Positions 5,807 to 19,355 of a stretch of 22,236 bases of DNA are shown piece by piece. How positions within the stretch are numbered: position 1 is the stretch's first letter; each line of letters starts with the position of its first letter. The translations under genes and the position numbers were made by a program. Source of the stretch: a virus; IMG/VR virus record IMGVR_UViG_3300022752_000432, positions 1-22,236 of that record; one strand, written 5' to 3'. Below the pieces are notes generated by a model. That model saw only the letters and a list, made by a program, of their open reading frames with translations, ran no database searches and was not told where the DNA came from.

Positions 5807-5938
5807 TCAACCTTGGCCACGACTTTGTTTATACCCTCTACGCTGGTGTTTATTCATAGAACTAGTTTTAGGTTTCTTTCCACCTTGGCTGGTGCGTTTG
5901 AATAAAGATTTTTTATTTGAATTTCCGGTTTTGGCCAT
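5807..5938 (-). CDS. Very small basic conserved phage protein (43 aa)
   Basis: The ATG at 5938 is preceded by AGGAG at 5949-5945 and a late promoter at 5967-5960, and the frame runs 43 codons to TGA. The product starts MAKTGNSNKK, is rich in Lys, Arg, Ser and Gln, has no hydrophobic core, and contains KTSSMNKHQRRGYK before ending SRGQG. Tiny basic proteins with a KTSSMNK-type centre and RGQG end are familiar as hypothetical proteins in T4-like marine phages. Nucleic-acid binding fits the charge but is speculation. It is the first gene of the late operon that ends with the giant fibre. Promoter, binding site and family-like text together make it convincing despite its size. Confidence 0.8.
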   Translation of the reverse strand: MAKTGNSNKKSLFKRTSQGGKKPKTSSMNKHQRRGYKQSRGQG

Positions 5939-5944
5939 TTTGAT

Positions 5945-5970
5945 CTCCTATAATACAGCTATTTATAGAG
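5945..5970 (-). promoter_or_regulatory. Late promoter with a possible SD-sequestering hairpin
   Basis: The minus strand carries an exact TATAAATA at 5967-5960, with predicted +1 near 5954. CTC-TATA (5970-5964) can pair with TATA-G-GAG (5952-5945), seven base pairs with one bulged G, and the right arm contains the AGGAG ribosome binding site. A transcript starting at 5954 lacks the left arm and leaves the site free; a longer read-through transcript could mask it. The promoter is secure; the hairpin is short and AT-rich. Confidence 0.65.
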
Positions 5971-5998: not shown

Positions 5999-6027
5999 TT
6001 GACAAGAGTAAAATAACCCTATATAAT
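5999..6027 (+). promoter_or_regulatory. Perfect consensus sigma70 promoter
   Basis: TTGACA at 5999-6004 and TATAAT at 6022-6027 are separated by exactly 17 bases, so both hexamers and the spacing match the bacterial sigma70 consensus. The only gene directly downstream is the 124-residue protein at 6058, which also has a full AGGAGG ribosome binding site. Strong immediate-early expression by unmodified host polymerase is the natural reading. Confidence 0.85.
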
Positions 6028-6057: not shown

Positions 6058-6432
6058 ATGACTATGCATCTCGAAGGTCCCTGGTTGTCTACTACTGGTC
6101 GCCGTAAGGGTAAATTTAAGTGGGCCAGTGCCGAAGCCAAGCGTCAGCATGAACAATTGCAACAAGAATGGCAAGCTCTTAAGGAACGCACTATGACCCG
6201 TCCCGCCGCCGCCCGACCTTTGACTCGTGCCCTACCCAAACTAGGTCCTCCACCCGGTCGAGAAACTCCCCATTACCCTAGTAAAGATTCCGGTGTCGGT
6301 GTTGCCGCGAAGAAAGATGTTCCGGTTTATACCGGCGACCAAATGCTAGGTGTTACTATAATGCACAAGAGTTGCTTACAGCCTGTGTTCAGCGAACAGG
6401 CTGCTGTTGACGCTGCCCATATGCGTAGGTAG
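6058..6432 (+). CDS. Conserved hypothetical basic protein behind a perfect early promoter
   Basis: A 124-residue protein. Residues 1-25 (start MTMHLEGPWLSTTGRRKGK) are basic, residues 25-48 look like a charged helix (EAKRQHEQLQQEWQALKER), a Pro/Arg-rich middle follows, and the end has GDQMLGVTIMHKS, PVFSEQAAVD and a terminal AHMRR. The LEGPWLSTTG start and the LGxxxMHKSxxxPVFS...MRR end are a combination I know from hypothetical proteins of many marine and freshwater tailed phages; I know no function. The start is fixed by AGGAGG at 6047-6052, five bases before the ATG. It stands alone between two late operons, and the hairpin after its stop may insulate it from the gene at 6474. An early host-takeover or nucleic-acid-associated role is inference. 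Confidence 0.85.
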   Translation: MTMHLEGPWLSTTGRRKGKFKWASAEAKRQHEQLQQEWQALKERTMTRPAAARPLTRALPKLGPPPGRETPHYPSKDSGVGVAAKKDVPVYTGDQMLGVTIMHKSCLQPVFSEQAAVDAAHMRR

Positions 6433-6436
6433 CTCG

Positions 6437-6471
6437 GTTAGGTACCGATAAATACTATTTCGGTACCTAAC
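6437..6471 (+). promoter_or_regulatory. 11-bp inverted repeat with a late promoter in its loop
   Basis: Bases 6437-6447 (GTTAGGTACCG) and 6461-6471 (CGGTACCTAAC) are a perfect inverted repeat around a 13-base loop. GATAAATA, seven of eight bases of the late octamer, lies at 6447-6454, placing +1 near 6460, at the start of the right arm. A late transcript thus lacks the left arm, while read-through from the early promoter at 5999 would contain the whole hairpin two bases before the ATG at 6474. There is no U tract, so an intrinsic terminator is unlikely. Confidence 0.75.
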
Positions 6472-6473
6472 TA

Positions 6474-9400
6474 ATGATACGTCAATATACAGTAACCCTT
6501 CACAGGTATGAAGACCTGGAGCAATTCTATGAGGACATGGAAACTCCGGGGGGCGATCTTTACATTCCAGATCGTGCTGTAGAAGTAACAAATCGCAGAC
6601 CATTAAGTAGGAACACAGTTTATTGGCTAAGTGATGCTGAAGCCGACTCGTTAAGATCGGATCCACGTGTTTTTGCTGTAGAGCTCAGTTTAGAAGAGCA
6701 AGGGATTCAAATAGAACCCTTATGGAGCCAAACCGGCAACTTTTATAAAGGTTCTCCTTACAGCAACGCAGACCTAACTGGTACAGATCGTAACTGGGGC
6801 CTACTGCGTATGACGCAGGGCACCGACGTGCTTGGTCATGGATGGGACGGTCAACGTAGGCACACTGCAACTATATCAACAAATTTAGATGGCACCAACG
6901 TTGATGTTGTCATTGTTGATGGTCATATACGACCGAATCATGCCGAATTCGCGGTTAACAATGACGGTACCGGCGGTAGTCGTGTACAGCAAATAGATTG
7001 GTTAGCTTATGCTTCTTTTATAGGTAAAACACCACCATCTACGTCTGTGACGTCACCGGTACCACTCACTTATGATTACGCCAGCTATTATAACAGTGAC
7101 TTAGGTGATCACGGTGCTATGGTTGCTGCTATTGCAGCAGGCAATACCCAAGGATGGGCGAGAGCAGCAAATATTTACAATATAAGCCCATACAATGAAT
7201 CTGGTATGGTAGCTGCCGAGGATGCACTAGATTACGTTAGATATTGGCATAACAACAAACCGGTTAATGGGACAACTGGTAACAAAAATCCCACTGTAGT
7301 TAACCTTAGTTGGGGATTTTACAGACTAATTAACGTACTAGATATAACCACCATTACTTATCGAGGAGTTACATATTCTGGTCCTTGGACTAATACTGGT
7401 GATGGAACAAGAACATATCAACAACTTGGTTTAGGTTTTAACGGTGCTAGACAATATAGACTAGCGTTAGGTGACACTGCCTACTACATTAAGGTAAGTC
7501 AACCGATCGCAGCATGGCAGGCCGACGTTGAAGATCTTATCACTGACGGCGCCCATGTTGTAGTTGCTTCTGGTAATGATGGACTGGTACATGATGTAAG
7601 TACAGGATTAGATTATAATAATAGCATAGTAACGACGAGTATTCCGGGCGGAGTATTCTATAATAGACGGTCGGGTGCGGCCAGTGCTAATGCTATTTCT
7701 GTAGGCAGTATTGATGCTAGTTCTTACGCACCTGGGGTAGACAGTTACAGTAATCGAGGACCGGCCATTGACGTTATGGCGCCAGGGTCAGGCATTGTTA
7801 GTGCAATTAATAGAACTACCAGTATAGCAGGGTCTGTTGTAGATGCACGAGGGCTTAATGGCGATAGGATCATTGTTGGTCAAGGTACCAGTTTAGCAGC
7901 ACCACAAATAGCCGGCTATCTTGCCACTATTCTAAGTGACCTAGGACATAGAACATACTCGCCAGCTCTAGCAAAGGCCTTTATGGCCGGCACTGCCCAA
8001 GTAGAACAATTAGTTGATTATGAAGCTCCTTATAACCTAGCAGGCACTCCTAATAGGTATGCTTTTTATCGGGCTTATTACCTAACAACTACAACTACAA
8101 TATTTCCAACCACTACAACAACATCCACCAGTACAACTACAACCAGTACCAGCACTACCACTAGTACCAGCACTACCAGTACATCAACCACTAGTACCAC
8201 AACGCTTTACTATCCGCCTTCGGTCACAGTAACACTACCAATTATTTGTTTAGCTATACCCGATGCTGGTAATGTAAATGTAGTAGGTAATGTTGCTTGG
8301 TATTCGTTTACTGTATCTAGTACACAAACTGTAGTTGTTGATACTATAAGATCAGCTGCACCTACAATAGACACGCATATTGCTGTATTCAATAGTTTGG
8401 GCGAAGTTATTGCCGAAAATGATGACACAGGTAATATTGATTTAAGTTATATAGAAGTTGAACTCGTAGCAGGCACATACTGGGTCGCCATAGGTATATT
8501 TGAAACCCAGTATAACCAAAGATTCCGCGCCTATGGTTTAACGCCGCTGCCTAGTGGTATATGTCTAACCATATATGATCGTGCCAATCCAGTTACAACA
8601 ACCACATCAACTACAACATCAACCACCACTACTTCTACATCAACCACCACTACAAGTACCAGTACGACCAGTACAACAACCTTTGCACCATATCCGGTTC
8701 GTCCACCAGGATTACCTAATTACGCTCTTGTTAAGTCCTGGTGTGATAATTTTGTTCTTTGGGGTCTTTACAGAAATCAATTCAATGAAACATATTCTGC
8801 AATAATAGAAAGAGATAGCCTAGCTTGTGGTTTTAAAATAATTACTACCTCTACTAGTACTACCACAACTACCACTAGTTTAATTCCTGCATCAACTTGG
8901 GACAGCACTGTAACACGATTAAGTATAGTGCTTGATAGGGTGCGTATCTATAAACTTCCCGTTGAAGAGCCCACGCACCTATTTAGACTAGCTCGTGGTG
9001 AAATGCCACCAGGCACGTCATTGTCTAACGTGGGCATTATTACCGGCACTCCTGCTATTCCAGATCGTGACTATAAATTTGAGCAGCCAATATATGTTTA
9101 TTCTTTTGGTGTTATAGGACGAGATGTAAGCGGTTTTGAAAGTTACAGACAATATAGCATTGGTGTTGTAAATAATGGATTATTTGTACCGGAAAAGTTT
9201 TTGCCAACCAATTCTAGTTTCGAAGGACGTACCTACACCTATACCATCAACACACCGTATACGCCCGATGTAGCAAATAATAAAGTATGGCGCCTACGTT
9301 GGGGACTGTTACCACCAGGCGCGAGTTTCGGCGCAGACGGCGTTTTGCGAGTAGAAGCTAAAACAGCAATACGTTCTTTCGTTCGTACCGAATTCCTCAC

Positions 9401-10904
9401 AGACTTTTTCTTAAACACTGCCAACAATAATCAGAGTACCTGGGACGCTTGGCTTAAAACCTTCTTAAGTAGAACACATGATTTTGACTATCAGTTTGTT
9501 GTTGAATTAAGTGATAACAATGGTAATGTTGACACCAGCCATACCATTAGAATAGTTCACACTAAAGCTCCTACTTACGAATCTTGGTTTCAAAATAATG
9601 CCGCTGACCTAACAGTTGATCTAAGCAGAACTTATTTTATACTATTAACTACCGAACACGATAGTGCTCGCTGGACTACAGGCTCGGATTTAGGATCTAT
9701 TGATAATGGCGGAATAAGCAAACAACAAATTATTTCAAGTAATGATTCTGGGTCAACTCTAATACATAGTATTGAACCCAACACTTATTCTAGATTTCCA
9801 CAAGGATTAAAGTTACAGTCTGATGGAATGATTATTGGTAGACCAAGTTTTAGAACCTACAAAGACGATCCTAATAGTTTGCCTGTAAATGACATTTATG
9901 AATTCACAGTGCGAGCATCAACTAACAATGGGCGCAGCTACAGCACACGTAGATTTAAAATAACTATAAATCGTGTCAACGAGTCTGCTTCAGACAATTT
10001 GTATATACGTGCCTTTCCTAGTATTGAACAGCGTCAGCAACTTGCCAACTTATTGACTCAGCCTAATATAATTCCACCGCAATCTATATTTAGACCAAAC
10101 GATCCGTGGTTTGGCTTACGCAAAGACATGTATATTGAATTTGCTGTTGGTCTAAATAAAACCAGTCCAGCGACTTATGAACAACTACTAGGATATGAAC
10201 ACTATAACAAATCATTCAGTTTTGGGTCAATAGAAACAGCAGTTATTCTTAATCAAGATCGCACAGTTGAATATGAAATAGTCTATGCGACTTTAGTTGA
10301 TAATAAACTAGGTATAAATGTTACTAATCGTCTAAGCGAACCACAGAGACCCTTAGTAGATTTGACCGGAACTCGTACATATTACTATACCCAAACTACT
10401 GAGCTTGATCTTTGGTACTATCGAGAGCAACCCCAAATCAAATACTACATAATGAGTGAGAACTCAATATATAATATGAAGTATAGGATTCGAGATAAAG
10501 TTGGGTATGTTAACGATTATGGTAACCTAATCCCCGAGTGGGCTAATAGTGAACAGCCTATTACCGGCACAGATAAATTCTCTGCACCGATTGGGTTTAT
10601 ACCAGTTGTAGTGTTAGCTTATACTAAGCCTGGGTTTGGGGCAGGCATTAAATTACAGTTAAATCAAATTAACTTTAATTTTCTAGAATTTGATTTTGAT
10701 AGATATCAACTAGAAAATCATTTATCCGAGTACTGGAACACCGAGACTCGCTCTTTCCTGTTAGGGCAACCCACAGTTTTTGATGCCAATGGTACTGTAT
10801 TTGACTACAACAGCACTAGGTTTATCGAAAACCAAGAGCAATATCGAGAGCAGCATACTGCCGATAAATATATAAAATTCCCAAAAACCGGAGTATTCCG
10901 TTAA
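6474..10904 (+). CDS. Tail protein with N-terminal subtilisin-type (S8) protease
   Basis: A 1476-residue modular protein. Residues 1-75 resemble the propeptide found in front of subtilases. Residues 145-510 are an S8 domain with the full triad: Asp149 (VIVDG), His213 (GDHGAMVAA) and Ser473 (GTSLAAP), plus the oxyanion Asn368 (ASGNDG). Thr/Ser linkers at about 538-577, 707-736 and 791-802 separate modules: residues 590-690 look like a pre-peptidase C-terminal (PPC) type beta domain (DTHIAVFNSLGEVIAENDD), and later segments have PPGxSLxxxGxITGTP motifs typical of Ig-like putative He_PIG repeats. The last 300 residues (FRPNDPWFGL, HYNKSFSFG, ILNQDRTVEYEIVYA) resemble the C-terminal region of large structural proteins of T4-like cyanophages. 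It probably sits on the tail, cleaving host surface proteins or itself. There is no secretion signal, as expected for a virion protein. Confidence 0.88.
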   Translation: MIRQYTVTLHRYEDLEQFYEDMETPGGDLYIPDRAVEVTNRRPLSRNTVYWLSDAEADSLRSDPRVFAVELSLEEQGIQIEPLWSQTGNFYKGSPYSNADLTGTDRNWGLLRMTQGTDVLGHGWDGQRRHTATISTNLDGTNVDVVIVDGHIRPNHAEFAVNNDGTGGSRVQQIDWLAYASFIGKTPPSTSVTSPVPLTYDYASYYNSDLGDHGAMVAAIAAGNTQGWARAANIYNISPYNESGMVAAEDALDYVRYWHNNKPVNGTTGNKNPTVVNLSWGFYRLINVLDITTITYRGVTYSGPWTNTGDGTRTYQQLGLGFNGARQYRLALGDTAYYIKVSQPIAAWQADVEDLITDGAHVVVASGNDGLVHDVSTGLDYNNSIVTTSIPGGVFYNRRSGAASANAISVGSIDASSYAPGVDSYSNRGPAIDVMAPGSGIVSAINRTTSIAGSVVDARGLNGDRIIVGQGTSLAAPQIAGYLATILSDLGHRTYSPALAKAFMAGTAQVEQLVDYEAPYNLAGTPNRYAFYRAYYLTTTTTIFPTTTTTSTSTTTTSTSTTTSTSTTSTSTTSTTTLYYPPSVTVTLPIICLAIPDAGNVNVVGNVAWYSFTVSSTQTVVVDTIRSAAPTIDTHIAVFNSLGEVIAENDDTGNIDLSYIEVELVAGTYWVAIGIFETQYNQRFRAYGLTPLPSGICLTIYDRANPVTTTTSTTTSTTTTSTSTTTTSTSTTSTTTFAPYPVRPPGLPNYALVKSWCDNFVLWGLYRNQFNETYSAIIERDSLACGFKIITTSTSTTTTTTSLIPASTWDSTVTRLSIVLDRVRIYKLPVEEPTHLFRLARGEMPPGTSLSNVGIITGTPAIPDRDYKFEQPIYVYSFGVIGRDVSGFESYRQYSIGVVNNGLFVPEKFLPTNSSFEGRTYTYTINTPYTPDVANNKVWRLRWGLLPPGASFGADGVLRVEAKTAIRSFVRTEFLTDFFLNTANNNQSTWDAWLKTFLSRTHDFDYQFVVELSDNNGNVDTSHTIRIVHTKAPTYESWFQNNAADLTVDLSRTYFILLTTEHDSARWTTGSDLGSIDNGGISKQQIISSNDSGSTLIHSIEPNTYSRFPQGLKLQSDGMIIGRPSFRTYKDDPNSLPVNDIYEFTVRASTNNGRSYSTRRFKITINRVNESASDNLYIRAFPSIEQRQQLANLLTQPNIIPPQSIFRPNDPWFGLRKDMYIEFAVGLNKTSPATYEQLLGYEHYNKSFSFGSIETAVILNQDRTVEYEIVYATLVDNKLGINVTNRLSEPQRPLVDLTGTRTYYYTQTTELDLWYYREQPQIKYYIMSENSIYNMKYRIRDKVGYVNDYGNLIPEWANSEQPITGTDKFSAPIGFIPVVVLAYTKPGFGAGIKLQLNQINFNFLEFDFDRYQLENHLSEYWNTETRSFLLGQPTVFDANGTVFDYNSTRFIENQEQYREQHTADKYIKFPKTGVFR
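8085..8204 (+). repeat. Thr/Ser low-complexity linker 1 (ACN-type codon repeat)
   Basis: About 40 codons consisting almost only of Thr and Ser join the protease domain to the PPC-like domain of the protein at 6474. At DNA level it is a degenerate tandem of ACN and AGT codons (units such as ACCAGTACC and AGCACTACC). Two further stretches of the same kind occur at 8592-8681 and 8844-8879. In-frame slippage or recombination could vary linker length. Confidence 0.85.
8592..8681 (+). repeat. Thr/Ser low-complexity linker 2
   Basis: Roughly 30 Thr/Ser codons between the PPC-like domain and a short cysteine-containing domain (WCDNFVLWG ... DSLACGF). Codons are again mostly ACN with interspersed TCA and AGT, forming a short tandem array similar to linker 1, so recombination between the two arrays would remove the PPC-like domain in frame. 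Confidence 0.8.
8844..8879 (+). repeat. Thr/Ser low-complexity linker 3
   Basis: About 12 Thr/Ser codons after the cysteine-containing domain and before the Ig-like part of the protein. Same composition as linkers 1 and 2, but shorter. Confidence 0.75.
10863..10870 (+). promoter_or_regulatory. Late-promoter-like octamer GATAAATA
   Basis: Seven of eight bases match the late octamer, and it lies 35 bases before the ATG at 10905, giving a leader of about 29 bases with CGGAG at 10889-10893. It is inside the last codons of the upstream gene, so chance is possible; it could boost expression of the second fibre gene. Confidence 0.4.
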
Positions 10905-14988: not shown

Positions 14989-15357
14989 ATGTTTCTAGTA
15001 GCATATTATTATCAAAAACCCAGTAACAACCGTGTGCGTACCAGCCGCGCCGGTTGGATGTTGCAACCTAATGCTGTTTCATATGATGAGCAGGTTGCAT
15101 TGACTACCAAAATTAAAAATAAAGACATGGCGATGGCCAAAGTTATTCTTGACTTGAGAGCACGCCGTGTGGTCAGGAACAGTTGGAACAAAGATACTGA
15201 TTATGAAAGTTTGTTTGAATACTATCAATCAAATTACCCGCAGTATAAAGAACTTATGAATTCCGTTAATACTGCTATGCTTAAAAAGCAAGAACGTACC
15301 CAAGCCATTGCGGTGCCAACCAGTGAAGTTAGGGTAGTCAACACTGCTACAACATAA
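14989..15357 (+). CDS. Conserved hypothetical phage protein after the clamp loader
   Basis: A 122-residue protein starting one base after the clamp loader stop. It begins MFLVAYYYQKPSNNRVRTSR, then GWMLQPNAVSYDEQVALTTK, a DMAMAKVILDLRARRVVRNSW segment, and YPQYKELM. The RAGWM...YDEQVxxT...AKVILDL...RVVxNSW...YPQY order is one I know from hypothetical proteins of marine T4-like phages; the function is unknown. Position would suggest the clamp loader small subunit gp62, but T4 gp62 (about 187 aa) shows no resemblance by eye, so I do not call it that. Its stop codon lies inside the next late promoter octamer. Confidence 0.75.
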   Translation: MFLVAYYYQKPSNNRVRTSRAGWMLQPNAVSYDEQVALTTKIKNKDMAMAKVILDLRARRVVRNSWNKDTDYESLFEYYQSNYPQYKELMNSVNTAMLKKQERTQAIAVPTSEVRVVNTATT

Positions 15358-15368
15358 ATATTTTTATG
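15353..15368 (+). promoter_or_regulatory. Late-type promoter CATAAATA at the start codon
   Basis: CATAAATA (seven of eight) at 15353-15360 puts +1 at about 15366, exactly the A of the next ATG, the same spacing as at 62-75, so a leaderless late mRNA is predicted. CATAAA (15353-15358) and TTTATG (15363-15368) are also inverted repeats around a four-base loop, which would place the ATG in a weak hairpin in any read-through transcript. Confidence 0.55.
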
Positions 15369-19338: not shown

Positions 19339-19355
19339 CATAAATACCATAAATA
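19339..19355 (+). promoter_or_regulatory. Tandem late-type promoter octamers CATAAATA
   Basis: Two copies of CATAAATA (seven of eight matches to the T4 late octamer) at 19339-19346 and 19348-19355, nine bases apart, in the 120-base gap between the divergent phoH and 19372 genes. The second predicts +1 near 19361 and an 11-base leader. They would serve the whole late operon down to the holin. Confidence 0.65.

Follow-up and report, generated by a model that had tools for sequence, protein, structure and literature searches.

The window analysed here is the whole of a 22,236-base virus record (IMGVR_UViG_3300022752_000432), which is probably a fragment. On its plus strand a short early-type gene with a sigma70-type promoter is followed by an inverted repeat that encloses a T4-type late promoter, and then by the gene for a large tail-type protein (Table 1).

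Table 1. Features of the window discussed in the text; transcription starts and RNA properties are predicted
Feature	Position	Strand	Remark
Late octamer	62–69 (ATG 75)	+	5 nt spacing
Late octamer	5758–5751 (ATG 5745)	minus	5 nt spacing, kept in relatives
Sigma70-type promoter, TTGACA-17-TATAAT, 12/12 match	5999–6027	+	would drive the upstream gene; putative source of read-through RNA
Upstream early-type gene, 124 aa, phrog_27048	6058–6432	+	ORF
Left arm GTTAGGTACCGA	6437–6448	+	expected in read-through RNA only; covaries with right arm in relatives
T4-type late promoter GATAAATACTATT (octamer GATAAATA at 6447–6454, plus CTATT)	6447–6459	+	
Predicted late transcription start	6460	+	T4 spacing, with the octamer from −13 to −6 (PMC2988020)
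Right arm TCGGTACCTAAC	6460–6471	+	predicted ribosome landing region of the controlled gene
Controlled gene, 1476-aa tail-type protein	6474–10904	+	N-terminal subtilase domain; C-terminal part common to the hairpin genes of L006 and L007
Late octamer	15353–15360 (ATG 15366)	+	5 nt spacing, kept in relatives

The inverted repeat consists of 12 bp with no mismatch around an 11-nt loop. A G-U pair (6436/6472) extends the stem to 13 bp, and two bases separate the stem end from ATG 6474. The stem spans about −3 to −14 of the controlled gene, and no convincing Shine-Dalgarno sequence was seen in the right arm, which offers GGT at most. When folded as RNA, positions 6425–6495 gave −22.1 kcal/mol (z −3.67), a value equalled by none of 200 shuffled sequences. 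The late promoter occupies the end of the left arm and the whole of the loop. Its octamer differs by one mismatch from the T4 sequence TATAAATA, and the 12 bases ATAAATACTATT at 6448–6459 are the sole exact match to that word within the window. The T4 late octamer begins at −13 (PMC2988020), so that by T4 numbering the +1 is predicted at 6460, where the right arm begins. An earlier note on this DNA had described an 11-bp perfect repeat ending two bases before ATG 6474; the position holds and the length is to be corrected to 12 bp, or 13 with the G-U pair. Its placing of the octamer in the left-arm end and loop, with the late start opening the right arm, agrees with the present analysis, as does its perfect sigma70 promoter at 5999, and the fold that it proposed as a check came out in its favour. 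When phage records were searched at the nucleotide level, the hairpin region matched none of them.

No terminator-like site was called between the sigma70 promoter and ATG 6474, and a same-strand promoter from which transcripts would read through into the hairpin is present upstream. This promoter is found at the same distance with 1 mismatch in the near relatives L005–L007, where the protein of the upstream gene is 84–90% identical, and in a similar place in most far relatives. It should also be noted that on the minus strand TATAAATA lies at 5967–5960 ahead of a basic ORF of 43 aa that starts at 5938 and runs divergently to the sigma70 promoter, and that both this ORF and the late octamer ahead of it are kept in the near relatives.

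To further compare the junction, the upstream gene was traced to 255 viral contig stretches, 80 of which were kept. The four nearest relatives (L005, L006, L007 and L008) have the upstream gene and, in the same place at the junction, GATAAATA within a hairpin whose end lies close to an ATG. The arms of L008 are those of the window, while L005 and L006 share a different type and L007 has another, and all of them still pair. The octamer and TCGG served as fixed points for lining up the sequences before pairs were counted; a MAFFT alignment of the five junctions had L007 out of register and was left unused. Counted outward from the octamer, pairs 1–9 are canonical in 5/5 sequences with their three arm types, and five of these nine inner pairs (pairs 5–9) are altered on both sides among the five junctions. 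Beyond them, pair 10 changes from T-A in the window to A-T in L007, and the G-U pair of the window is A-U in L008. The longest uninterrupted stems measure 13, 13, 11, 11 and 14, and these lengths were reached by 0, 0, 1, 1 and 0 of 300 shuffles, respectively. These compensatory changes, which the earlier note had named as the comparison to make, keep the pairing in the relatives, and it is this comparison that weighs most for the proposed switch.

A stable hairpin beginning 4 nt past the stop codon of the upstream gene (6430–6432) could also be the 3′ end of the early upstream mRNA, serving as terminator, stabiliser or RNase site, with the overlap of the late promoter being incidental. However, there is no T-tract and no terminator was called, every near relative has the octamer in the loop, and other late promoters are surrounded by similar hairpins. 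In addition, most far relatives have no late octamer behind the upstream gene, and no such hairpin was found there either. A role confined to the 3′ end is therefore considered very unlikely.

Accessibility was expressed as the predicted cost of opening positions −15 to +12 in the read-through RNA and in the late RNA. For the window this cost falls from 19.0 kcal/mol in the read-through RNA to 2.7 kcal/mol in the late RNA, with corresponding values of 20.5 and 5.4 kcal/mol for L006 and 19.4 and 1.3 kcal/mol for L007. The same calculation for T4 gene e gave 16.6 and 1.6 kcal/mol. In the folded read-through RNA the AUG is mostly unpaired in the window (0.90) and paired in L006. Since the AUG of the window is mostly unpaired and lacks a convincing Shine-Dalgarno sequence, the predicted block must act on 30S docking.

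As read from the sequence, positions 6437–6474 likely form a promoter-embedded translational lock of the T4 gene e type. Early RNA from the sigma70 promoter at 5999 would read through the upstream gene and bear both arms, and its stem of 12–13 bp would shut over about −3 to −14 and exclude 30S subunits. At late times, RNA polymerase carrying a gp55-type sigma factor would initiate at 6460, inside the hairpin, giving an RNA with the right arm and without the left, which is expected to stay open and be translated. The footprint of a ribosome terminating at 6430–6432 would take in part of the left arm, and such a ribosome could briefly open the stem. It is from this that an account by translational coupling arises, in which the stem is melted by the ribosome that completes the upstream gene, so that the downstream gene is translated from early RNA as well. 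It is judged slightly less likely still than the 3′-end explanation, given that the stop codon and the left arm are 4 nt apart in the window against about 12–16 nt in L005–L007, and that coupling leaves the late promoter in the loop unexplained.

The hairpin of T4 gene e blocks translation of the early read-through RNA about 100-fold, and the same behaviour of promoter and hairpin is described for T4 e, soc, 49 and I-TevI (PMC3014915) and likewise for the hairpins of I-TevII, I-TevIII, segB and Aeh1 mobE (PMC2988022). In these T4-type cases the ribosome binding site is hidden in the read-through RNA and free in the late transcript (PMC3014915; PMC2988022). The window resembles T4 e in having the octamer in the loop, the left arm directly upstream, the right arm adjoining the ATG and a similar predicted unlocking, but its gene and arms are other ones and it belongs to a different phage group; the Shine-Dalgarno sequence that T4 e buries is strong, whereas the window has hardly any. 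With respect to soc, gene 49, I-TevI, I-TevII, I-TevIII, segB and mobE, the window differs in that its gene encodes a large tail-type protein heading a variable operon. The same layout was found before a homing-endonuclease-like gene in a close relative (G004, L088), which recalls the I-Tev and mobE hairpins. The perfect palindromic arms flanking the octamer, and the fact that I-TevI represses its own late promoter through an operator over it (PMC2988022), would also suit a palindrome acting in the DNA itself, for instance an operator through which a repressor or activator controls the late promoter, but this is the least probable of the alternatives, as the arms diverge widely yet stay complementary, the G-U pair becomes A-U in L008, and no common protein site is seen beyond CCGA beside the octamer. 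The preferred reading, that of a gene e-type switch, is the one proposed in the earlier note, and it is sustained by the joint keeping of promoter and pairing in the four nearest relatives and by the gene e-like unlocking that is predicted; the citing of T4 e and soc as precedents was also correct, both being described in PMC3014915. The layout is a known T4 device, present here in distant jumbo phages and kept despite changed stem sequence.

The N-terminal part of the 1476-aa protein is a subtilase (PF00082, E 2.5e-21) whose residues D149, H213 and S473 are invariant across the protein alignment; the protease part found no match among PDB sequences. What stands N-terminally behind the hairpin varies, being a protease in the window, no protease in L006 and another protein first in L007, while the C-terminal tail-protein part is common to the three genes at 35–37% identity. 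The tail protein appears modular (window 6474–10904, L006 3428–5179, L092 1204–3914), with a shared C-terminal part and an N-terminal module that is a protease, absent, or swapped for another protein in a separate gene. Cyanophage homologues lie directly behind a wedge/tail-pin gene in baseplate operons, the neighbours being unnamed in one case. In L003 the protease homologue is the second gene of a late operon and has no hairpin of its own, while the first gene of that operon is preceded by a late promoter and its start region is paired. It had been proposed that the switch keeps an active protease from being made early. This does not serve as a general reason, because the hairpins of L005/L006 and L007 head genes without a protease domain and protease homologues standing second in a late operon lack their own hairpin, as seen in L003 and from the order of genes in the cyanophages.

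Late-type octamers (ATAAATA) at 14–27 nt before ATGs numbered 142 in the relatives, whereas permuted words averaged 46. Pairing of −14 kcal/mol or stronger across the octamer was found at 12.7% of late sites, against 2.6% when arms were exchanged between sites and 5.9% for control words (Fisher P 0.0055). The enrichment of hairpins at late promoters is a real effect of modest size that varies from genome to genome. The idea that most late promoters of the group carry hairpins was rejected, as only a minority do, at about 2–4 fold over control words. The jumbo genome G019 showed no hairpins at strong cut-offs, and in Sinorhizobium phage Phosso alone the enrichment is marginal, with good cases also found there before virion genes. 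Phosso ORFs preceded by this layout include those at L221:10546 and L228:6447. A preference of hairpins for co-directional over divergent upstream genes was likewise dismissed, with no significant difference (22/4 vs 73/22).

At 19339–19355 a tandem pair of late-type octamers precedes ORF 19372 in the window, and homologues of this ORF have tandem or shifted octamers 6–18 nt from the ATG, so that leader length varies among relatives. A second pairing round these octamers is lost in a 92% identical homologue and was taken as chance.

A gp55-type late sigma factor is encoded in the long contigs G009, G011, G015, G016, G018 and G019 and in PA5oct and Phosso. None was found in the 22-kb window or its nearest relatives, all of which are fragments, and a search for gp33 was silent everywhere and is uninformative.

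A second arrangement was seen when the distances from NATAAATA to the ATG were pooled. Their distribution is bimodal, with 86 sites at 4–7 nt, almost none at 8–15 nt and a second hump at 16–26 nt; T4 has zero sites in the short class. Exactly 5 nt separate octamer and ATG in 43 of the 86, a distance which places the predicted +1 on the A of the ATG, and for about a third of the late promoters in these phages the predicted start is this A. A Shine-Dalgarno-like 4-mer at −17 to −4 is present in 0/86 sites of the short class versus 90/140 of the longer class, the octamer filling most of that stretch in the former. The spacing before ORF 15366 recurs as 5–6 nt in its homologues (32–86% identity) in L094, L089, L087, L092, L172, L184, L144 and L127. 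Phosso and PA5oct have only 2 short-spacing sites each. Leaderless late mRNAs would be the simplest account of the short class: with the octamer 4–7 nt before the ATG, read-through RNA would carry no ribosome site and late RNA would begin with AUG. Literature searches found no report of leaderless late mRNAs for T4-like phages, which is not proof of absence. Leaderless-type octamers were also observed behind or near the upstream-gene family in L010, L040, L042, L022 and L023, where upstream sequence pairs with early codons and the pairing encloses the start codon in its loop.

It is tentatively suggested, with a little less than even confidence, that jumbo T4-like phages have two means of confining late proteins to late mRNAs, both set by where the transcript starts, namely by the hairpin lock and by leaderless genes. 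The covariation shows that a regulatory arrangement familiar from a few T4 genes is under selection in very distant jumbo phages, where it heads a variable tail-protein operon. The cultured Sinorhizobium phage Phosso offers testable cases, and a class of leaderless late mRNAs, which is likely to be large, would bear on how late proteins are translated in these phages.
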